Of a DNA stretch of 46,586 nucleotides, positions 2,310-34,141 are shown in pieces. Positions within the stretch are counted from its first letter, which is position 1, and each line of letters begins with the position of its first letter. This DNA is from Clostridium sp. (GTDB taxonomy: Bacteria; Bacillota; Clostridia; Clostridiales; Clostridiaceae). Below the pieces are notes generated by a model, which made no database searches, had not been told where the DNA came from, and saw nothing but the letters and a program-made list of their open reading frames with translations. The stretch is taken from NCBI RefSeq assembly GCF_029258205.1, contig NZ_JARHZJ010000106.1:1-46586 (forward strand). The letters run 5' to 3'. Made by a program: the position numbers and the translations under genes.

Positions 2310-2887
2310 TTATGATTTTTTTAAACCAATAATTTTTTCCTCACTTATTATTAAGTCAACCTTCTCATCAAAAAACTCATGTGGAATCTCATCAAAGACT
2401 TGAAAATCATAGCATAAAGCAACTCTCTTACTATTAGGATATTTTCTTAAAAATCTATCGTAAAATCCTCCTCCATACCCTAATCTATTTCCCTTTAAAT
2501 CAAATGCTAAACCAGGTACTATAATTAAATCAACTTCCTTACTTATATCTTCACACTCAATGCTTGGTTCTAATATTCCAAAGGCACCACTTTCATTTAA
2601 TTGAAGTAAAGACTCTATTTTAAAAGCCTTCATTTGTCTTTCTCTTAAACTAACAGGAATAACTTTAGGAACTGCAACTTTTTATCTGAATCTAATAACT
2701 CTTTTATTATTTTAGATGTATTTACTTCAGAATCCATATTTACATATATAAATACAACCTTACTATTTTTATATATATCACTTTCAAAAAGAGTTTTTAT
2801 TATTTTTTCATCAGCCATTAACTTAGTATTTTTATCCATACGTTCTCTTTTTAACTTAATTTCATTTCTTAACTCTCCCTTATCCAT
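2310..2887 (-). pseudogene. 5-formyltetrahydrofolate cyclo-ligase, interrupted by a -1 frameshift
   Basis: Two ORF pieces together make one 5-formyl-THF cyclo-ligase (YgfA/MTHFS), the enzyme that returns 5-formyl-THF to 5,10-methenyl-THF using ATP. The N-terminal part starts at the ATG at 2887 behind GAGGAGG (M-D-K-G-E-L-R) and reads to D-S-D-K-K. There the frame is lost in a run of five T on the plus strand (2679-2683). With one more base the reading would go on as K-K-V-A-V-P-K-V-I-P-V and join the second part, which carries the family's nucleotide and substrate motif G-Y-G-G-G-F-Y-D-R-F near residue 140. Both halves are otherwise well kept, so this is a very recent mutation, a slippage-prone tract, or a sequencing error in a homopolymer. 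Confidence 0.85.
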
Positions 2888-3011
2888 ATGAAATTCCTCC
2901 TCATAGATTTTTAATAATTTTACCATATATTGTATTTAAGTACTATATAAATACACTTAATATTCTCTTTACCTAAATTCATAATAATAATAATAAATTA
3001 TATTTTTCTAT

Positions 3012-3051
3012 AAAAAAATAAGTGCATAGTATATATTTATACACTATGCAC
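3012..3051 (-). terminator. Terminator of the glmS transcript
   Basis: GTGCATAGT (3022-3030) pairs with ACTATGCAC (3043-3051), and on the minus strand the hairpin is followed by TTATTTTTTTA. It lies downstream of glmS, the 57-residue gene and the 34-residue ORF, which suggests they form one transcript. Confidence 0.75.
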
Positions 3052-3077
3052 AAAGCTATTAAATTATTTTCTCGCTA

Positions 3078-3182
3078 CTATTGTAAAAATACTTTTTCTA
3101 CTTTTCCTTCTTCTAAGTATTTTGAGTGAGAAACTTCTTTATCATCTAATGAAGTATAAAAGTAATCCCCACACATATACAT
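3078..3182 (-). CDS. Possible 34-residue small protein
   Basis: The complement opens at an ATG at 3182 (M-Y-M-C-G-D-Y-F-Y) and closes at a TAG at 3078, just inside the glmS terminator. The peptide is acidic and lysine-rich and ends K-V-F-L-Q. No strong ribosome binding site is seen, and an in-frame stop lies shortly upstream. I do not recognise it. It could be a real mini-gene at the end of the glmS transcript, a remnant of a longer gene, or chance. Its codon use is natural for this DNA. Confidence 0.3.
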   Translation of the reverse strand: MYMCGDYFYTSLDDKEVSHSKYLEEGKVEKVFLQ

Positions 3183-3211
3183 AAGATTAAACTTTTAAGC
3201 TAATTTTTATA

Positions 3212-3382
3212 TTAAATTCTTTCAGCAGCAATTGCCATTTCTAAATCTCTTATTATTACATTTACTATATCTAACTTCCCTTTAGCATAGTCTTTGTCTT
3301 CTAACCAGTTTAATCCTGTTTCAAGACACTTTTTAGTTTCCTTATACTCTGCTAATAATTTTAATAAACTCTCATTATTCAT
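3212..3382 (-). CDS. Small conserved-looking protein of unknown function
   Basis: A 56-residue ORF starting at M-N-N-E-S-L-L, behind AAGGGGGA at a good distance. A longer version starting at 3409 would overlap the end of glmS and lacks a ribosome binding site. The product is predicted to be nearly all helix, with a Cys near position 19 and an acidic-hydrophobic pattern (L-L-K-L-L-A-E-Y, N-W-L-E-D). It begins 19 bases after the glmS stop and before the shared terminator, so it is probably co-transcribed with glmS. I do not recognise a family. Confidence 0.6.
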   Translation of the reverse strand: MNNESLLKLLAEYKETKKCLETGLNWLEDKDYAKGKLDIVNVIIRDLEMAIAAERI

Positions 3383-3401
3383 ATTCAAAATCCCCCTTTT
3401 T

Positions 3402-5234
3402 TTATTCAACAGTTACTGATTTAGCTAAGTTACGTGGTTTATCAACATCAAATCCTTTAGCTTTAGCTACGTAGTATGAGAATAATTGTAATGGTACAAC
3501 ACTTAAAACTGGTGATAATAAGCTTAATGTTTCTGGTATTTCTATTAATCCTTTAAACATTTTTCTCTTACTTTCTTCCATGTCACCTTTGAAGCAAACA
3601 CCTAAAACATTAGCTCCTCTTGTAACAACTTCTTGAACATTACTTATCATTTTATCTATAAGCTCTCTTTGAGTTAGTAATGATATTACTGGGATATCTT
3701 TTTCTATAAGAGCTATTGGTCCATGTTTAAGTTCTCCACCTGCATAAGCCTCTGAGTGAATGTAAGAAATCTCTTTAAGTTTTAATGATCCTTCCATTGC
3801 AACTCCATAATCCATACCTCTTCCTAAGAAATATAAATCTTTTTCTGTAGATGCTTTAACTGCAAACTCTTTTATTAAATCTGTATTTTTAAGGATCTCT
3901 TCAACTTTTTCTGGTAATTCAAGCATTGCTTTTTTGATTTCCTCAATTTCTTCTACGGATTTGCTTCCTTTTAACTCAGCAAAGTGTAATGCTAATGTGT
4001 ACATAGCAATTAATTGAGTTACATATGCTTTTGTTGATGCAACAGCTATCTCTGGACCAGCCCATGTGTATAATACATCATTAGCTTCTCTTGAAACTGA
4101 ACTTCCTACTACGTTAGTTACAGCTAACACTCTTGCACCCTTTGCTTGACCATCTCTTAAAACTGCTAAAGTATCTGCAGTTTCTCCTGATTGACTTAAT
4201 ACTATTATTAAAGTTTTATCTGTAATAATAGCATCTCTATATCTAAATTCTGAAGCTATATCAACTTCTACTGGTATTCTAACTAACTTTTCTATAGCAT
4301 ACTTTCCAATAACTCCAGCATGGTAAGCTGTTCCACAAGCAACTATATATACTCTATCAACATTATCTAAATATTCTTTAGTTATTGATATATCATCTAA
4401 AGTTACTTCTTTTCCTTCCATGATTCTTGATGTCATTGTATCTTTTATGGCTTTTGGTTGCTCGTTAATTTCTTTTAACATGAAATCTTCATATCCACCT
4501 TTTTCAGCAGCATCAACATTCCATGTTATATGATAAACTTCTTTTTCCACTGGATTTTTTTCTTCATCAAAAAGAGTAACTCCATCATTTGTTAATACTA
4601 CAAACTCTTTATCTTCTAAAAGATAAACTTCTCTTGTATGATTTAAAACAGCTGGTATATCAGAAGCTATGAAATATTCTCTTTCTCCTAATCCAACTAT
4701 TAGTGGACTATCTTTTCTTACAGCTACTAATTTTTCTGGCTCATCATTGCATATAACTCCAATAGCATATGAACCTTCCATGTGTTTAGTAGCTTCCATA
4801 ACAGCATCTAATAAATCTCCCTTGTAGTAGAAATCTACTAAATTTGGAATAACTTCTGTATCTGTTTCTGATTTAAATTCGTATCCTTTTTCCATTAACC
4901 AGTTTCTTAGTTCATTGTAATTTTCAATGATTCCATTGTGAACTACAGCTATTGTTCCTTTATTATTTAAATGAGGATGTGAGTTAACATCTGATGGTTC
5001 TCCATGTGTAGCCCATCTAGTATGTCCTATTCCGATTCCACCCTCTATTGGATTTTCATTTAATATTCCTTCTAAGTTTGCTAATCTTCCTTTATGCTTT
5101 TCAGCCTTTATCTTATTTTCCTCTAAAACTGCAACTCCTGCTGAGTCATATCCTCTATATTCTAATTTTGATAATCCTTCAACTAATATATCTGTTGCCT
5201 TTTTTTGTCCTACGTATCCAACTATTCCGCACAT
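3402..5234 (-). CDS. glmS: Glutamine-fructose-6-phosphate aminotransferase (isomerizing)
   Basis: A 610-residue enzyme that makes glucosamine-6-phosphate from fructose-6-phosphate and glutamine, the first committed step to UDP-GlcNAc and cell wall. The start is set at M-C-G-I-V-G-Y, because the N-terminal Cys is the glutaminase nucleophile once Met is removed. The upstream M-E-G-R-K-N extension would bury it. Domains run in order: class II glutamine amidotransferase (about 1-220, with T-R-W-A-T-H and H-N-G-I-I-E-N) and two SIS isomerase domains (about 285-425 and 455-600, with S-Q-S-G-E-T and the C-terminal S-V-T-V-E). The preceding glmS ribozyme indicates that its product, GlcN6P, represses expression by triggering mRNA self-cleavage. 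Confidence 0.98.
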   Translation of the reverse strand: MCGIVGYVGQKKATDILVEGLSKLEYRGYDSAGVAVLEENKIKAEKHKGRLANLEGILNENPIEGGIGIGHTRWATHGEPSDVNSHPHLNNKGTIAVVHNGIIENYNELRNWLMEKGYEFKSETDTEVIPNLVDFYYKGDLLDAVMEATKHMEGSYAIGVICNDEPEKLVAVRKDSPLIVGLGEREYFIASDIPAVLNHTREVYLLEDKEFVVLTNDGVTLFDEEKNPVEKEVYHITWNVDAAEKGGYEDFMLKEINEQPKAIKDTMTSRIMEGKEVTLDDISITKEYLDNVDRVYIVACGTAYHAGVIGKYAIEKLVRIPVEVDIASEFRYRDAIITDKTLIIVLSQSGETADTLAVLRDGQAKGARVLAVTNVVGSSVSREANDVLYTWAGPEIAVASTKAYVTQLIAMYTLALHFAELKGSKSVEEIEEIKKAMLELPEKVEEILKNTDLIKEFAVKASTEKDLYFLGRGMDYGVAMEGSLKLKEISYIHSEAYAGGELKHGPIALIEKDIPVISLLTQRELIDKMISNVQEVVTRGANVLGVCFKGDMEESKRKMFKGLIEIPETLSLLSPVLSVVPLQLFSYYVAKAKGFDVDKPRNLAKSVTVE

Positions 5235-5326
5235 ATTTTTTCTTCCTTCCATTTTGTAAAATTATATTCTAAATTTCAAAATAAGCTTTATATAACTTCT
5301 TAATACATAGAAGGTCTCAAACACCT

Positions 5327-5514
5327 GATTGACTTTGTCCTTAAAATCACTTTTAAGCTTTAACCAATCTTTTACGGTAGTGCTTTACCGTGGGGCATCC
5401 GCCGAAAATTCGATACTCCCCAACCTCGTCAACTTAATTTTATTAATAATCTTTAAACTCTACTAAAGTTAAATCACTTGTTAGTCTATCAATAAAACTT
5501 TAAGTTCTGGCGCT
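5327..5514 (-). ncRNA. glmS ribozyme-riboswitch
   Basis: The complement carries the recognisable core: AGCGCCAGAACT at the 5' end (cleavage expected between 5514 and 5513), the TTGACGAGGTTGG pseudoknot strand, ATCGAATTTTCGGCGGATG, a P3-type hairpin, and a P4 helix formed by GATTG and CAATC (CAATC ends at 5327). This is the Rfam glmS class. It binds glucosamine-6-phosphate as a cofactor for self-cleavage and so feeds back on glmS. About 90 bases of leader lie between its 3' end and the glmS ATG at 5234. Confidence 0.95.
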
Positions 5515-6012
5515 TTAATCCATTATTTTGAAAGTTAATATATTCTATGCATCATCTTTCTAAAAAGCTACAAACTTATTCTAACACTTTTTTTTAAAAT
5601 TTCAACCTTTTAAAGTTCATTTTTATTCATTTTTAGTTATTTTTATCTATTTTCAAGAAATATTTTAAATTATCTGTCTATACATCTATATTTCTCTTAT
5701 TTAATATATCAATGTATAGTTGTATAGACATCTATAGAATTTAATTTTTGAATAAACTTTTAAATTCTATATTACAAAAGAAATTTCTATATTTATTTCT
5801 TTCATTTTTAACTTTAAAGTATAATTTATATCTAAATATTTTTAATTATTTAAAATTTCTAAGCATAAAAGAACTCACTTATATATAGTAGATAATATTA
5901 TATTTTACTTACTTATAAAAAATTAAATTTCTTATATATCATACTTTAATTAGTTACTTTTCATAAGGAAAATCATATTATAAATACTATAAAAATAATT
6001 TAGGAGATTTTT
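5515..6012. other. Divergent intergenic region between glmS and the ferritin-like gene
   Basis: About 500 bp with no credible gene. It must hold the glmS promoter (minus) and the promoter of the ferritin-like gene (plus). I could not settle -35/-10 boxes with confidence in this AT-rich sequence. The one clear structure is the long inverted repeat at 5675-5730, listed separately. Confidence 0.6.
5675..5730. repeat. 16-bp inverted repeat (TGTCTATACATCTATA / TATAGTTGTATAGACA)
   Basis: The arms 5675-5690 and 5715-5730 are complementary except for one base, across a 24-base spacer. It is not followed by a T-run, lies far from both gene starts (about 280 bp before the ferritin-like ATG), and looks more like an operator pair or a cruciform than a terminator. 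It shares the half-site ATAGACA with the repeat at 8402-8490. Confidence 0.5.
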
Positions 6013-27354: not shown

Positions 27355-27397
27355 AATAGGCTATATCAAAATAAATTTGATATAGCCTATTTTTTAT
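27355..27397 (+). terminator. Bidirectional terminator between the SleB-family and thioredoxin reductase genes
   Basis: AATAGGCTATATCAAA (27355-27370) pairs exactly with TTTGATATAGCCTATT (27376-27391) and is followed by TTTTTATTT on the plus strand. It lies between two convergent genes. Confidence 0.8.
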
Positions 27398-28254
27398 TTC
27401 TTACTGTCTAAGTATGCAACTGCACTTAAAGCAGCTACATTTCCTTCACCTGCAGCTTTTATATATTGGTATGGTCTACCAGTACAATCTCCTGCAGCAA
27501 AACAGCCTTCTATATTAGTTTTCATTAACCTATCAACTTCTATGTAATCTTCAGTTATTTTTAATCCTGGTACTAATTGCCCTGGTGATATACTATCTCT
27601 TAATAAAAATATACCATCAGTATCTATTTCACCATTCTTAGTAACTAATTTATTAACTTTATTATCCCCTTTTATTTCTAAAGGAATATCATTAATAACT
27701 TCAATTTCTGAATTTAAATTAAATTCTCCCTTATATCTAGGAATATAATAAACTTTAGCTGCTAATTCACTTACAAAATTAGCTTCTTCTTCAGCTTCTT
27801 TATTATAGCCAATTATAGTTACAGTTTTTTCTTTATATAAAGGAGCATCACAAGTTGCACAATATCCTACACCTTTACCTAAGAATTCTTCTTCACCTTT
27901 CATAGGTTTTGTGTATTCAATACCTGTTGCTAAGATTATTGAAGTAGCTTCATACATTTTTTCATTTACCATAAGAGCGAAATATTCTCCCATAGCATAA
28001 ATACTATTTATTCTTTCTTCTGTTATTTGTATATCCATCTCCTTTAGATGACTCATAAACTGATTTTTAAGGTCAGCACCATTTTTTCCAACAAACCCAA
28101 GATAGTTATTTATCTTTGGAGCTTTAACAAGCTTTGTACTTAAATCATTGTTACCAAAAAGAATAAATTTTTTGTTTCTAATTTTTGCATTTAATGCAGC
28201 TGAAAGCCCAGCTGGTCCGCTTCCTATTATAGCTATATCGTATCTTTCGCTCAA
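27394..28254 (-). CDS. Thioredoxin reductase-like flavoprotein without an NADPH site (FFTR-like)
   Basis: A 286-residue flavoprotein of the thioredoxin reductase fold: FAD motif G-S-G-P-A-G-L-S-A-A (11-20), redox pair C132-A-T-C135 and the FAD C-terminal motif G-C-F-A-A-G-D-C-T-G-R. Where standard enzymes have the NADPH loop G-x-G-x-x-A and H-R-R-x-x-x-R, this one reads I-I-G-Y-N-K-E-A-E-E-E-A and Y-I-P-R-Y-K-G, and it is shorter than usual (about 310-320). That fits the ferredoxin-linked flavin thioredoxin reductases known from clostridia. The start is a TTG at 28254 behind AAGGAGAT. Thioredoxin is encoded 26 bases upstream in the same operon. Confidence 0.88.
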   Translation of the reverse strand: MSERYDIAIIGSGPAGLSAALNAKIRNKKFILFGNNDLSTKLVKAPKINNYLGFVGKNGADLKNQFMSHLKEMDIQITEERINSIYAMGEYFALMVNEKMYEATSIILATGIEYTKPMKGEEEFLGKGVGYCATCDAPLYKEKTVTIIGYNKEAEEEANFVSELAAKVYYIPRYKGEFNLNSEIEVINDIPLEIKGDNKVNKLVTKNGEIDTDGIFLLRDSISPGQLVPGLKITEDYIEVDRLMKTNIEGCFAAGDCTGRPYQYIKAAGEGNVAALSAVAYLDSKK

Positions 28255-28280
28255 AATTATTCATCTCCTTAAGAAGCTTA

Positions 28281-28595
28281 TTAAACGTATTTTTTGATAA
28301 CTTCAACTAATGCAGCTTTTGGTCTAAAACCAACTAAAGTATCAACAACTTTTCCCTCTTTAAATATTAATAAAGTTGGTATACTTTGTATTTGATACTT
28401 TCCAGCTGAACCTGGATTTTTATCAACATCAACTTTTACAAACTTAACATTTTCCATTTCATTTGATAACTCTTCTATAACTGGAGCTATCATTTTACAA
28501 GGTCCACACCAAGTTGCCCAGAAATCAACAACTACTACTTCACTTGCTTCTATTACTTCTGTATTAAAATCTTGATCATTTATATGTTTTAACAT
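28281..28595 (-). CDS. trxA: Thioredoxin
   Basis: A 104-residue standard thioredoxin with the active site W-C30-G-P-C33-K, the cis-Pro loop I-P-T-L-L-I-F and normal length. ATG follows AGGAGG. It is the first gene of a two-gene operon with the reductase. A consensus promoter and a GC-rich palindrome lie directly upstream. Confidence 0.96.
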   Translation of the reverse strand: MLKHINDQDFNTEVIEASEVVVVDFWATWCGPCKMIAPVIEELSNEMENVKFVKVDVDKNPGSAGKYQIQSIPTLLIFKEGKVVDTLVGFRPKAALVEVIKKYV

Positions 28596-29970: not shown

Positions 29971-29997
29971 AAAAAAAGGCACGAATTAATTCGTGCC
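29971..29997 (-). terminator. Strong terminator of ptsI
   Basis: A 20-base perfect palindrome (29978-29997), GGCACGAATT paired with AATTCGTGCC, is followed on the minus strand by TTTTTTTTATAA. Confidence 0.85.
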
Positions 29998-30052: not shown

Positions 30053-31672
30053 TTATTCTTGTTCCATTATTATTTTCTTAGCAGTTAGGATTGATGTAGC
30101 ACTCATAGAGAATTCATCTAAACCATATTCAACTAATGTTGGTATAGCTCTTTCGTCTCCTGCCATCTCTCCACACATTCCTACCCACTTACCATGTTTG
30201 TGAGCTCCATCTATTGTCATTTTAATTAATCTTAATACAGCTGGATGCATTGGATTGTAAAGGTATGATACCTTCTCACTCATTCTATCAGCAGCTAATG
30301 TATATTGGATTAAATCGTTAGTTCCTATTGAGAAGAAATCAACATGCTTAGCTAACTCATCAGCGCAAACTGCTGCAGCTGGGATTTCAACCATGATACC
30401 CCATTGAATTGAATCTGAGTATTCTATACCTTCTGCTTTTAACTCTACTTTGCACTCTTCAACAAATGCTCTAGCTTGTTGGAATTCTTCTAATCCTGAA
30501 ATCATTGGGAACATTACTGCAAGATTTCCATAAACAGAAGCTCTTAATAAAGCTCTTATTTGAACTCTAAAGATATCTTTTCTGTCTAAGCATAATCTTA
30601 TAGCTCTGTATCCTAAGAATGGATTCATCTCTTCTGGTAATGGTAAGTATGGAAGAGTTTTATCTCCACCGATATCTAGTGTTCTAATAACAACTTGCTT
30701 ACCATCTGCTTTTTCTAAAACATATTTGTATGCTTCAAATTGTTCATCTTCAGTTGGAGCTTCATCTCTATCCATATATAAGAACTCAGTTCTAAATAGT
30801 CCAACTCCATCTCCACCATTTGCTAAAACTTGATCTATATCTTCTGGTTTGCCTATGTTTCCGCAAACCTCTATTCTTCTACCTGATTTAGTAGTTGTTT
30901 TAACATCTATTAATTTTTTTAATTCTTCTTGTTCTGCTTTAAATTTCTCTAATCTAGCTTTATATTCATTTATAGTAGCTTCATCTGGGTTTATTATAGC
31001 TACGCCCTCAATACCATCAACTATTATAGTATCCCCATTTTTAACCGAAGTTGTTATGTCACCTAGTCCAACAACAGCTGGTATTTCTAAAGTTCTAGCC
31101 ATTATAGCTGAGTGAGAAGTTCTTCCTCCGATGTTAGTTAAGAAACCAACAACCTTACTTCTATCTAATTGAGCAGTATCTGAAGGTGTTAAGTCATGAG
31201 CTACAACAACAGTATTAGCTCCTACATTTTCCATTCCGTTTCCGCCCTTACCAGCTAGGTTAGCTATTATTCTCTTAGAAACATCTTTTATGTCTGCTGC
31301 TCTTTCTCTCATGTAAGGATCATCCATAGAATCAAATATCATAACGAAAGTATCTGTAACATTTTGAACAGCCTTCATAGCGTTTAATTGGTCATTTTCT
31401 ATAGTCATTTCCATTTGACCAGTAAACTCTACATCATCTAATAACATTAAGTGAGCTTCAAAAACTTGAGCTTCATGTTCTCCAATTTCATTAGCTGTTT
31501 TTTCTTTTATTGCTTCTAATTGTTCTCTTGATTGAACTAAAGCTTTAGATAATTTTTCTTTTTCAGATGCTATATCTGAAACCTTCGCATCAGATATTAT
31601 TATTTCCTCATGTTCTTGTATAAATACAGTTCCTATTGCATATCCTTTTGAAGCAGCAATACCTTTTTTCAT
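30053..31672 (-). CDS. ptsI: PTS enzyme I (PEP-protein phosphotransferase)
   Basis: A 539-residue general PTS protein that takes phosphate from PEP and passes it to HPr-His15. The active-site His lies in G-G-R-T-S-H-S-A-I-M-A-R (about residue 189), and the PEP-binding C-terminal barrel shows G-V-G-L-F-R-T-E-F-L-Y-M and G-M-C-G-E-M-A-G-D. The start is the ATG at 31672 (M-K-K-G-I-A-A-S-K) behind AAAGGAGG, not the earlier 31702. No ptsH lies beside it. Unusually, the upstream region carries a -24/-12 sigma54 promoter and, further up, three inverted repeats shared with a divergent sigma54 activator that contains an HPr domain. Confidence 0.97.
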   Translation of the reverse strand: MKKGIAASKGYAIGTVFIQEHEEIIISDAKVSDIASEKEKLSKALVQSREQLEAIKEKTANEIGEHEAQVFEAHLMLLDDVEFTGQMEMTIENDQLNAMKAVQNVTDTFVMIFDSMDDPYMRERAADIKDVSKRIIANLAGKGGNGMENVGANTVVVAHDLTPSDTAQLDRSKVVGFLTNIGGRTSHSAIMARTLEIPAVVGLGDITTSVKNGDTIIVDGIEGVAIINPDEATINEYKARLEKFKAEQEELKKLIDVKTTTKSGRRIEVCGNIGKPEDIDQVLANGGDGVGLFRTEFLYMDRDEAPTEDEQFEAYKYVLEKADGKQVVIRTLDIGGDKTLPYLPLPEEMNPFLGYRAIRLCLDRKDIFRVQIRALLRASVYGNLAVMFPMISGLEEFQQARAFVEECKVELKAEGIEYSDSIQWGIMVEIPAAAVCADELAKHVDFFSIGTNDLIQYTLAADRMSEKVSYLYNPMHPAVLRLIKMTIDGAHKHGKWVGMCGEMAGDERAIPTLVEYGLDEFSMSATSILTAKKIIMEQE

Positions 31673-31760: not shown

Positions 31761-31777
31761 AGCAATTTACGTGCCAA
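31761..31777 (-). promoter_or_regulatory. Sigma54 (-24/-12) promoter of ptsI
   Basis: The minus strand reads TTGGCACGTAAATTGCT (31777-31761). It matches the consensus TTGGCAC-N4/5-TTGCW, with the invariant GG (31775-31774) and GC (31763-31762) exactly 10 bases apart. The expected start is near 31750, leaving about 80 bases of leader before the ptsI ATG. Confidence 0.88.
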
Positions 31778-31919: not shown

Positions 31920-32072
31920 ATGATAAAAAATATCAATCCAATTTTATTGTTGATATTTTTTATCAATTTTCTTTTAAAAACAATCTTTTTTATTAAGATG
32001 TATATTCATAAAGCCTTTAAAATAGTACTTTTTTCTGATAATATATTATTAACACTTGATAAAAAATATCAA
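31920..32072. promoter_or_regulatory. Three enhancer-like inverted repeats (TTGATA-N5-TATCAA)
   Basis: Copies lie at 31920-31936 (one end base differs), 31950-31966 (reverse orientation) and 32056-32072. Each is a 17-base TTGATAAAAAATATCAA or its complement. Centres are about 30 and 106 bp apart, near whole helical turns. They lie about 150 to 290 bp upstream of the ptsI -24 element and within 215 bp of the activator's ATG. They are the likely binding sites of the divergent activator. Confidence 0.75.
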
Positions 32073-32131: not shown

Positions 32132-34141
32132 ATGTATTCAAGAGAATTGATTATAAAGACTCCATTAGGATTACATACTAGATACTCTGCTATGATTGTT
32201 AATAAGGCTTCTGAAATAGAGTCTAAGTATAAAGTTAAACTCTATATAAAAAAAGAATCTTATACAGATTGGCTTGGAATAAGTATGCTTGCAATACTTT
32301 CTCTTAAGGTATTGCCTAATGAAAGTATATTAATTGGATCTAAAAACGAAGGAATGATTGAAAAGTTAGCTGTTCAATCTCTTCTTGAGTTTATTGATAA
32401 AAACATAAATAATCTAATTGAATCTGAAGATAGTGAAATAGATGAAATAATAGATGCTAGCATAGTAGCTAATGAACAAGTGGTGGAAAGTTTACCAATA
32501 GGTATTGTCGTTATAGATATAGACCAAAATATAATAACAATGAATCAATACGCTTTAAGATTTATTGGATGCAATAAAAAAGATGTTAAAGGAAAAAAAA
32601 TTAATGAAGTAATCCCATCATCTCAACTTCCTCATGTTATGCTTAGCAATTTAAAAAAATACGGCTCAACTCTTCATATAAATAACAGAGTTGGCTTAGT
32701 AAATAGTTCTCCTCTTTTCATAAACGATAAGATTATAGGTGCTGTAAGTGTTATTCAAGATGTATCTGATATTATAGGTATGAAAGAAATAAATGAGAAA
32801 TTTACTAAAATACTTGAAAATTCACAGGATATGATTTGCTTTGTAGATGAGAATGGCATAATAAATTATTTAAATCCTGCATATACTAAAAACTTTTCTA
32901 AAGTTAGTTCTGATTTTATAGGCAAAAGTATTTTCGATGTTTCTCCTGATGGACTTAGAGCTAAAGTGTTTAAAGAAAGAACTTTATTAAAAGATGTAAT
33001 TCATAAAAAAAGTGGTATAAATGTTATAAGTACTATCGACCCTTTATTTATCGATGGGCAGTTTAAAGGAGTTATTTCAACTTCTAGACCAGTTAGTTTA
33101 ATTAAAGAACTTATGTCAAAACTAAATAAATCTGAACAAGAGTTGGATTATTATAAAAATGAGTTTTTAAGACAGCTATCTAAAAATTCTTCTTTTAAGA
33201 ATATTATAGGATCAACTAGAACCCTAAAAGACATAATGTACATGTGTCAAAAAGCTTCAGAAACTACCTCAACTGTTCTCATTCGTGGTGAAAGTGGTAC
33301 AGGGAAAGAACTTATTGCAAAAGCAATTCACAATAATAGCAATAGAAAAAATAAGCCTTTTGTAAGAGTTAACTGTGCTTCAATCCCTGAAAATCTCTTA
33401 GAAAGTGAATTATTCGGATATGAAAAAGGCGCTTTTACAGGAGCAGTTCAAAGTAAACCAGGTAAATTTGCTATTGCTGATACAGGTACTATATTCTTAG
33501 ATGAAATAGGTGATATGCCTCTATCAATGCAAGTTAAACTTCTTAGAGTTTTGCAGGAAAGAGAAATTGAAAGCGTGGGAGGTATAACTCCTAAAAATAT
33601 TGATGTAAGAGTTATTGCAGCAACTAATAGAAATTTAGAAGAAATGATTGATGATGCTTTATTTAGAGAGGATCTTTATTACAGACTTAATGTACTAGGT
33701 ATTAATCTTCCTCCACTTAGAGAACGTAAAGAAGATATTCCTGAATTAGTAGAGCATTTTATAACTAAACTAAATAAAAAGTTAAATAAAACTGTATTAG
33801 GAATAAAACAAGATGCCCTTAATCTACTAATTGAATATTCTTGGCCTGGGAATATTCGTGAACTTGAAAATATAATGGAAAGAGCTATAAACCTTTGTGA
33901 TGGTGACTATATAGATAGTTCTTATTTACCTTCATATCTAAAGCCAGTTGAATCAAAATCTTTTAATTTAAATATTGATATTGATCATATTCTTCCCTTT
34001 GAAGAATATGAGAAACAAATAATCGAAGCAGCTATGAAAAAGTACAAATCCTTCAACAAAGCTGGAAAAGCTTTAGGATTAACACATAGAACAGTTTCTT
34101 TGAAATGTAAAAAATATAATATAGATGTAAAAAAAGAATAA
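32132..34141 (+). CDS. Sigma54-dependent activator with N-terminal HPr domain and two PAS domains
   Basis: A 669-residue enhancer-binding protein. Domains in order: an HPr-like domain (about 1-92) with H15 and R17 in G-L-H-T-R and Asp at position 46 where Gram-positive HPr has regulatory Ser46; PAS 1 (about 115-215); PAS 2 (about 222-330); an AAA+ sigma54-interaction domain (about 360-595) with Walker A G-E-S-G-T-G-K-E near 386 and the G-A-F-T-G-A loop near 433; and a Fis-type helix-turn-helix (about 635-665, N-K-A-G-K-A-L-G-L-T-H-R-T). The intact G-A-F-T-G-A loop indicates true sigma54 activation. The ATG at 32132 follows GGACGGTGAT. It diverges from ptsI, whose promoter is sigma54-type, so ptsI is the obvious target. 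Confidence 0.92.
   Translation: MYSRELIIKTPLGLHTRYSAMIVNKASEIESKYKVKLYIKKESYTDWLGISMLAILSLKVLPNESILIGSKNEGMIEKLAVQSLLEFIDKNINNLIESEDSEIDEIIDASIVANEQVVESLPIGIVVIDIDQNIITMNQYALRFIGCNKKDVKGKKINEVIPSSQLPHVMLSNLKKYGSTLHINNRVGLVNSSPLFINDKIIGAVSVIQDVSDIIGMKEINEKFTKILENSQDMICFVDENGIINYLNPAYTKNFSKVSSDFIGKSIFDVSPDGLRAKVFKERTLLKDVIHKKSGINVISTIDPLFIDGQFKGVISTSRPVSLIKELMSKLNKSEQELDYYKNEFLRQLSKNSSFKNIIGSTRTLKDIMYMCQKASETTSTVLIRGESGTGKELIAKAIHNNSNRKNKPFVRVNCASIPENLLESELFGYEKGAFTGAVQSKPGKFAIADTGTIFLDEIGDMPLSMQVKLLRVLQEREIESVGGITPKNIDVRVIAATNRNLEEMIDDALFREDLYYRLNVLGINLPPLRERKEDIPELVEHFITKLNKKLNKTVLGIKQDALNLLIEYSWPGNIRELENIMERAINLCDGDYIDSSYLPSYLKPVESKSFNLNIDIDHILPFEEYEKQIIEAAMKKYKSFNKAGKALGLTHRTVSLKCKKYNIDVKKE

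Follow-up and report, generated by a model that had tools for sequence, protein, structure and literature searches.

What does a sigma54 activator sense when an HPr domain is fused to its N-terminus, and which gene does it serve? The question is raised by a gene at 32132..34141 on the plus strand of a 46,586-nucleotide stretch of Clostridium sp. DNA (hereafter the window), which encodes a protein of 669 amino acids. Along the plus strand, the protein consists of an HPr domain (residues 3-89; 32138..32398), a first PAS domain (residues about 115-213; 32474..32770; PAS_8 at 115-168 and PAS_9 at 123-213, together with the structure model), a second PAS domain (residues about 224-320; 32801..33091; PF00989 and PF08448 from 224 and 228, the end taken from the model), a sigma54-interacting AAA+ domain (33203..33703; PF00158, E 1.2e-72) with GAFTGA at residues 433-438 (33428-33445), and a Fis-type helix-turn-helix (residues 624-664; 34001..34123). 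The last of these scored 45 bits with PF18024 against a cut-off of 27, and 20.7 bits with PF02954, slightly below the cut-off of 22. The initial annotation had proposed this order of domains, and the Pfam matches and the position of GAFTGA bear it out. An AAA+ domain of PF00158 with GAFTGA at 433 and a C-terminal Fis-type helix-turn-helix mark the protein as a sigma54 enhancer-binding protein, and the genome supplies both a sigma54 and, before the predicted target, a -24/-12 promoter. The source genome contains one sigma54 match and six PF00158 matches. Two of the six are strong, namely the activator described here and one on contig 17 (L277, G000:C17, 3435-6214). The latter has 453 amino acids in an open reading frame that begins with a PAS-like stretch, and it is divergent from a transporter-like gene having its own TGGCATGAAAATTGCT promoter.

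We compared the protein with the known classes that it resembles. The N-terminal domain passed the Pfam gathering score for PF00381 and has the HPr fold. On TIGR01003 (HPr family phosphocarrier protein) it scored 38.4 bits against a curated cut-off of 47.9. By these scores the domain is HPr-like, yet not classed as a free phosphocarrier by TIGR01003. Membership in PrdR (NF041552) was rejected, with 495.2 bits against a cut-off of 795, and the score with the DhaR model was far below its cut-off (253.3 versus 551). No PRD family, the mark of a LevR-type activator, appeared among the best 25 of the 26 Pfam matches with E no higher than 1, the remaining match being weaker than E 0.17. The model of the full-length protein (pTM 0.46, mean pLDDT 82.5) leaves the packing of the HPr domain on the rest of the protein unfixed.

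The neighbouring gene is ptsI, encoding enzyme I of the PTS (30053..31672, minus strand; 539 amino acids; TIGR01417 at 712.9 bits against a cut-off of 341.7), which is our predicted target. It is divergent from the activator gene across a gap of 459 bases. In this gap, a putative sigma54 -24/-12 promoter, TGGCACGTAAATTGCT (31761..31776, minus strand), points into ptsI. It is conserved and is the sole exact match to TGGCACRNNNNTTGCW in the window and in the genome, where 25 places match with at most one mismatch. The ptsH gene lies on a different contig, and none of the 25 places was found there. On the 3' side of ptsI there is a terminator-like hairpin (29978..29997, minus strand), a weak call, since two terminator-like sites were found against 1.4 expected from shuffles; because it comes after ptsI, the gene is probably transcribed alone. 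Elsewhere in the window, two adjacent frames on the minus strand (2310-2633 and 2645-2926, together 2310-2926) resemble two parts of one gene, perhaps that of 5-formyltetrahydrofolate cyclo-ligase.

Between the activator gene and ptsI we also found palindromes of the form TTGATA-N5-TATCAA, which resemble activator sites: one with a single mismatch at 31920..31936 and two exact ones, TTGATATTTTTTATCAA at 31950..31966 and TTGATAAAAAATATCAA at 32056..32072, the last being 60-76 bases ahead of the activator's start codon. In the window, the five-base-spacer pattern with up to two mismatches occurred 18 times against 13.02 expected, a weak excess that 6 of 100 shuffles reached. Exact copies occurred at four places in the genome, two of them at this locus, compared with two per strand for a reversed control pattern. 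A variant with a six-base spacer occurred in the window about as often as chance predicts (13 times, against 13.74 expected). Since the counts in the window and the genome are weak, we based the case for the palindromes on 66 intergenic regions with shuffles and controls.

For this purpose, 206 genomes of the family Clostridiaceae were searched for relatives. The ptsI group comprised 70 places, which are the window and 69 further places with a close relative; among 20 lower-scoring full-length rows, 11 were fetched. Overall, ptsI was present within 67 of the 70 fetched stretches, window included, and was divergent from the regulator in all 67, so that the fusion beside ptsI, which the initial annotation had suggested looking for in other clostridia, does recur; these rows are related by descent, and the counts here and below are not counts of independent events. 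The three others are L075 and L097, both on contigs in which the neighbour is elsewhere or cut, and L130, a paralog in genome G117. The gap between regulator and ptsI was mostly 250-740 bases, with outliers at L139 (2.4 kb) and L129 (1.2 kb, a partial ptsI match). One locus, L140 (G182:C1:481044-491556), has an activator frame of only 181 amino acids beside ptsI, a truncated gene, and its ptsI promoter has one mismatch. Six ptsI-linked relatives (L111, L119, L122, L128, L129 and L138) are 554-559 amino acids long, about 110 shorter, and probably have one PAS domain fewer.

Upstream of ptsI, a match to TGGCAYRNNNNTTGCW with at most one mismatch was found in 65 of 67 cases, 55 of them exact; the distance to the start ranged from 48 to 354 bases, the median being 97. 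As controls we used ptsI genes from genomes without this regulator: 40 places were hand-picked from listed rows rather than drawn at random, and one (L271) was dropped because its upstream region was too short. None of the remaining 39 had such a promoter with up to one mismatch upstream of ptsI; 35 of these genomes have a sigma54 match (counted by hand), some are incomplete (e.g. G092, 51%), and G031, G009 and G018 carry a dha-type relative. Shuffled ptsI upstream regions gave a promoter with up to one mismatch in 17 of 1340 cases and an exact one in a single case. The palindromes behaved alike. L139 was left out here, its ptsI being 2.4 kb away, and among the 66 remaining intergenic regions 62 contained exact palindromes (116 in total), while all 66 contained at least two with up to one mismatch. 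In 20 rounds of shuffling, an exact palindrome never arose, and one-mismatch palindromes arose in 0.75 regions on average (maximum 3). The 39 controls held no exact palindrome and a single one with one mismatch. Many of the palindromes stand 20-60 bases before the regulator's own gene. Sequence and statistics thus support the domain architecture, the promoter and the operator-like palindromes, as well as the prediction that ptsI is the target.

The two ptsI genes that lack the promoter belong to L134 (genome G108) and L135 (genome G107). These are also the only two genomes of the 70 in the ptsI-linked group in which no sigma54 match was found. Their regulators have NI-NGN and NT-NGN in place of GAFTGA; among 81 proteins, 70 have GAFTGA, 8 have GSFTGA, 2 have these altered forms and 1 is truncated. 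Promoter and GAFTGA were lost together, and H15, R17 and the palindromes were retained. The two regulators probably now work with another sigma factor. Such a pattern is expected if HPr-dependent control of ptsI is the function that is kept and sigma54 is just the usual means. We know of no HPr domain in E. coli DhaR, which differs from the activator in this respect. DhaR is similar in that it controls dihydroxyacetone kinase genes and has lost GAFTGA, as in L134 and L135; in the accessible text of PMC3162934, DhaR and TyrR of E. coli are described as former sigma54 activators with an altered GAFTGA.

Beyond the close relatives, the best 80 of 254 relatives include named ones from Halanaerobiales, Peptococcaceae, Geosporobacter and Bacillaceae. 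We examined 41 distant relatives (L141-L151 and L207-L236), of which 34 carry the HPr domain. By hand count, every one of the 34 has dhaK, dhaL, dhaM or ptsI in the fetched stretch (among them L145 and L218, almost one and the same gene), and these genes were found in none of the seven fetched stretches of HPr-less relatives. A sigma54 promoter with up to one mismatch precedes the target genes in 32 of the 34; in L214 and L216 the fetched stretch ends within the upstream region. For five of the seven HPr-less relatives (L227, L228, L232, L234 and L235), sigma54 promoters lie just downstream. In the tree, the seven form one side of a branch (100/99), the ptsI label needs two changes and the dha label three; the root is a midpoint only, and we claim no direction of change between dha-linked and ptsI-linked forms. 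The palindrome, with up to one mismatch, is present in the gap between activator and dhaK at 6 of 11 dha-linked loci. In the paralog L130 (G117:C47:79741-90403, 2794-5666), the sigma54 promoter (3479, minus strand) precedes an adenylate kinase gene rather than ptsI. That adenylate kinase gene is followed by thioredoxin and thioredoxin-reductase-like genes; the window has a thioredoxin/reductase-like pair too, at 27394-28595, beyond iadA and ptsI.

We then asked which residues are held constant in the HPr domain. The predicted phosphorylation site is encoded at 32174..32182 on the plus strand (H15 at 32174-32176, then T16, and R17 at 32180-32182). That His 15 and Arg 17 are present with HPr-like numbering had been noticed from the start, and both proved invariant. 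In an alignment of 51 diverse N-termini (A2; the window plus 50 of 80 loci, these being the best 80 of 254 relatives), G13, H15, R17 and A20 are the sole invariant positions among 98, and H15 and R17 are kept in all 51 rows as well as in 70/70 ptsI-linked relatives. Pro18 of HPr is kept in none of the 70, which have I, V, F, Y or L instead. Pro18, G67 and D69, all invariant in 12 true HPrs, do not belong to the positions conserved in the activator's HPr domain across A2. Since H15 and R17 are invariant while Pro18, G67 and D69 are lost, the sequences indicate that the active-site pair is what selection holds. One of the 11 dha-linked relatives, L148, has Thr instead of R17. In summary, the domain shares with HPr phosphocarriers the fold, H15, R17 and a helix B with a Ser N-cap, but differs from them in being fused to a regulator, in lacking Pro18 and in having five additional residues before helix B.

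HPr accepts phosphate from enzyme I, and for this reason enzyme I would be the direct donor to the activator as well. We propose that the protein acts as a sigma54 enhancer-binding activator on the divergent ptsI gene and senses through the HPr domain that it carries. Phosphorylated enzyme I would pass its phosphate to H15. With enzyme I scarce, or losing its phosphate to sugar, H15 would stay unphosphorylated, the AAA+ part would be active, and sigma54-RNA polymerase would transcribe ptsI. Enzyme I would thereby meter its own synthesis in a self-adjusting loop. The palindromes shortly before the regulator's own gene suggest that the activator may also bind there and limit itself. As a whole, an HPr-sensing activator through which enzyme I meters its own gene is, in our judgment, the probable explanation of the locus. 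The initial annotation had likewise proposed a sensor tied to enzyme I, a part that gains circumstantial support from the invariant H15 and R17, from the gene facing ptsI and from the controlled promoter and palindromes. Counting against the explanation are the loss of Pro18, G67 and D69, the missing R17 in L148, the TIGR01003 score below its cut-off and the L130 promoter that faces adenylate kinase.

The weakest step of this explanation is the sign. We lean moderately toward the unphosphorylated form as the active one, because ptsI and dhaKLM would both be wanted while phosphate is being drained. If instead phosphorylated H15 were active, ptsI would be expressed at high PEP and in the absence of sugars; as PRD-type activators are generally stimulated by phosphorylation through P~His-HPr according to the accessible text of PMC4706839, this deserves some weight, but it would reduce enzyme I during PTS sugar use, and we give it roughly a minority share of our belief.

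The enzyme I-metered reading also has to be set against one in which enzyme I or a DhaKLM subunit binds to the HPr domain, so that occupancy rather than phosphotransfer alters the AAA+ activity. DhaK and DhaL act on E. coli DhaR by binding, and docking would account both for the tie to the enzyme I and DhaKLM genes and for the loss of Pro18. Binding alone, however, would not need H15 and R17, which are invariant in 51/51, and we regard it as unlikely.

The remaining question is the residue at position 46. The number 46 falls on an Asp (32267..32269, plus strand), which the initial annotation took for a replacement of the HPr-kinase target Ser46; the permanent negative charge had suggested a sensor insulated from HPr kinase. 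However, the activator's domain is five residues longer than HPr in the segment joining helices A and B. In a profile-profile alignment (probability 99.4%), S51-M-L-A-I-L-S57-L-K-V is paired with S46-L-I-G-V-L-S52-L-G-V of the same organism's HPr, and Asp46 falls at HPr residue 41, ahead of helix B. The structure prediction, which had been called for as a check, gave an HPr fold with helix B beginning at 52, just behind Ser51 (32282..32284, plus strand) as its N-cap. Because five additional residues precede helix B, the Asp at number 46 is a counting artefact, and by alignment and model Ser51 is the equivalent of Ser46, so that the HPr-kinase serine is retained. Consistently, the Ser51 position is Ser in 70/70 ptsI-linked relatives, in 9/11 of the dha-linked sample and in 46/51 rows of A2. 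The residue numbered 46 is acidic in 60 of the 70, but Ser in 3 of them and Lys in 7 of the 11 dha-linked relatives. A true swap of Asp for Ser46 would even count against the link to enzyme I, given that the title of PDB entry 1sph describes S46D HPr as impaired.

With the serine retained, the activator may have a second input. HPr kinase acting on Ser51, in addition to enzyme I acting on H15, would let it read the FBP/ATP level too. The constancy of Ser51 speaks for such a reading, as do the HPr kinase in the source genome and the fact that none of the eight family genomes without an HPr kinase match has a ptsI-linked relative. But with HPr kinase in nearly all genomes of the family (198 of 206), its co-occurrence proves little; moreover, a Ser at a helix N-cap may be purely structural, and A2 has Asn (3/51) and Thr (1/51) at this position. 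We consider this second input doubtful. As for the insulating charge itself, the Asp at number 46 and its acidic counterparts in 60/70 relatives are all that speaks for it, and with the alignment and the model both placing the Ser46 position at Ser51, it is next to impossible.

How does the activator relate to known systems? In LevR-like activators, PRD and EII domains serve as phosphate acceptors, whereas in the activator described here the built-in HPr domain is the predicted acceptor. Both are sigma54 activators, those of the LevR type being under PTS phosphorylation control according to the accessible text of PMC3162934. The same text (Francke 2011) reports that some sigma54 activators of clostridia, 0.3% of activators, have HPr as a signal domain, and cites Reizer 1999, whose title implies PEP-dependent phosphorylation. 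HPr-domain sigma54 activators are therefore a kind already described (Francke 2011, Reizer 1999), and our protein resembles them in being a clostridial sigma54 activator that carries an HPr domain; that text names no target, promoter or operator for them. For the DhaQ group, the accessible text of Nie 2019 (PMC6615313) predicts a regulon of dhaKLM and ptsI and lists PTS-HPr among activator domains. DhaQ members are thus sigma54 activators with the predicted targets dhaKLM and ptsI, and with dhaKLM and/or ptsI as the target via sigma54, our activator may, judging by its promoter and palindromes, be one of them; an HPr domain on DhaQ members, H15 or the loop is not mentioned in that text. A literature search, with subscription journals largely outside it, returned no experiment on H15 or on phosphorylation of the HPr domain in such an activator. 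Four points have no counterpart in the literature searched: that Ser51 is the Ser46 equivalent, that promoter and palindromes accompany ptsI in a controlled comparison, that variants exist in genomes without a sigma54 match, and that across Bacillota the HPr domain is tied to the enzyme I or DhaKLM genes.

To our knowledge, direct phosphorylation by enzyme I has been demonstrated for no transcription factor. It is conceivable, though we hold it only tentatively and think it rather improbable as a whole, that the fused HPr domain of a transcription factor sitting on the gene for its phosphodonor takes phosphate directly from enzyme I and is a substrate of HPr kinase at Ser51 too, summing PEP/enzyme I and glycolytic state, and that throughout Bacillota this device serves the genes of enzyme I and dihydroxyacetone kinase and is kept even where sigma54 has been lost. 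In C. acetobutylicum, ptsI falls in a ccpA mutant, though no CRE site was found for ptsI, according to the accessible text of PMC3507653. A dedicated HPr-sensor activator facing ptsI is a candidate answer to this ccpA effect without a CRE site. If enzyme I is the donor, the activator would connect the PTS to DNA while bypassing free HPr, EIIB and PRD domains.
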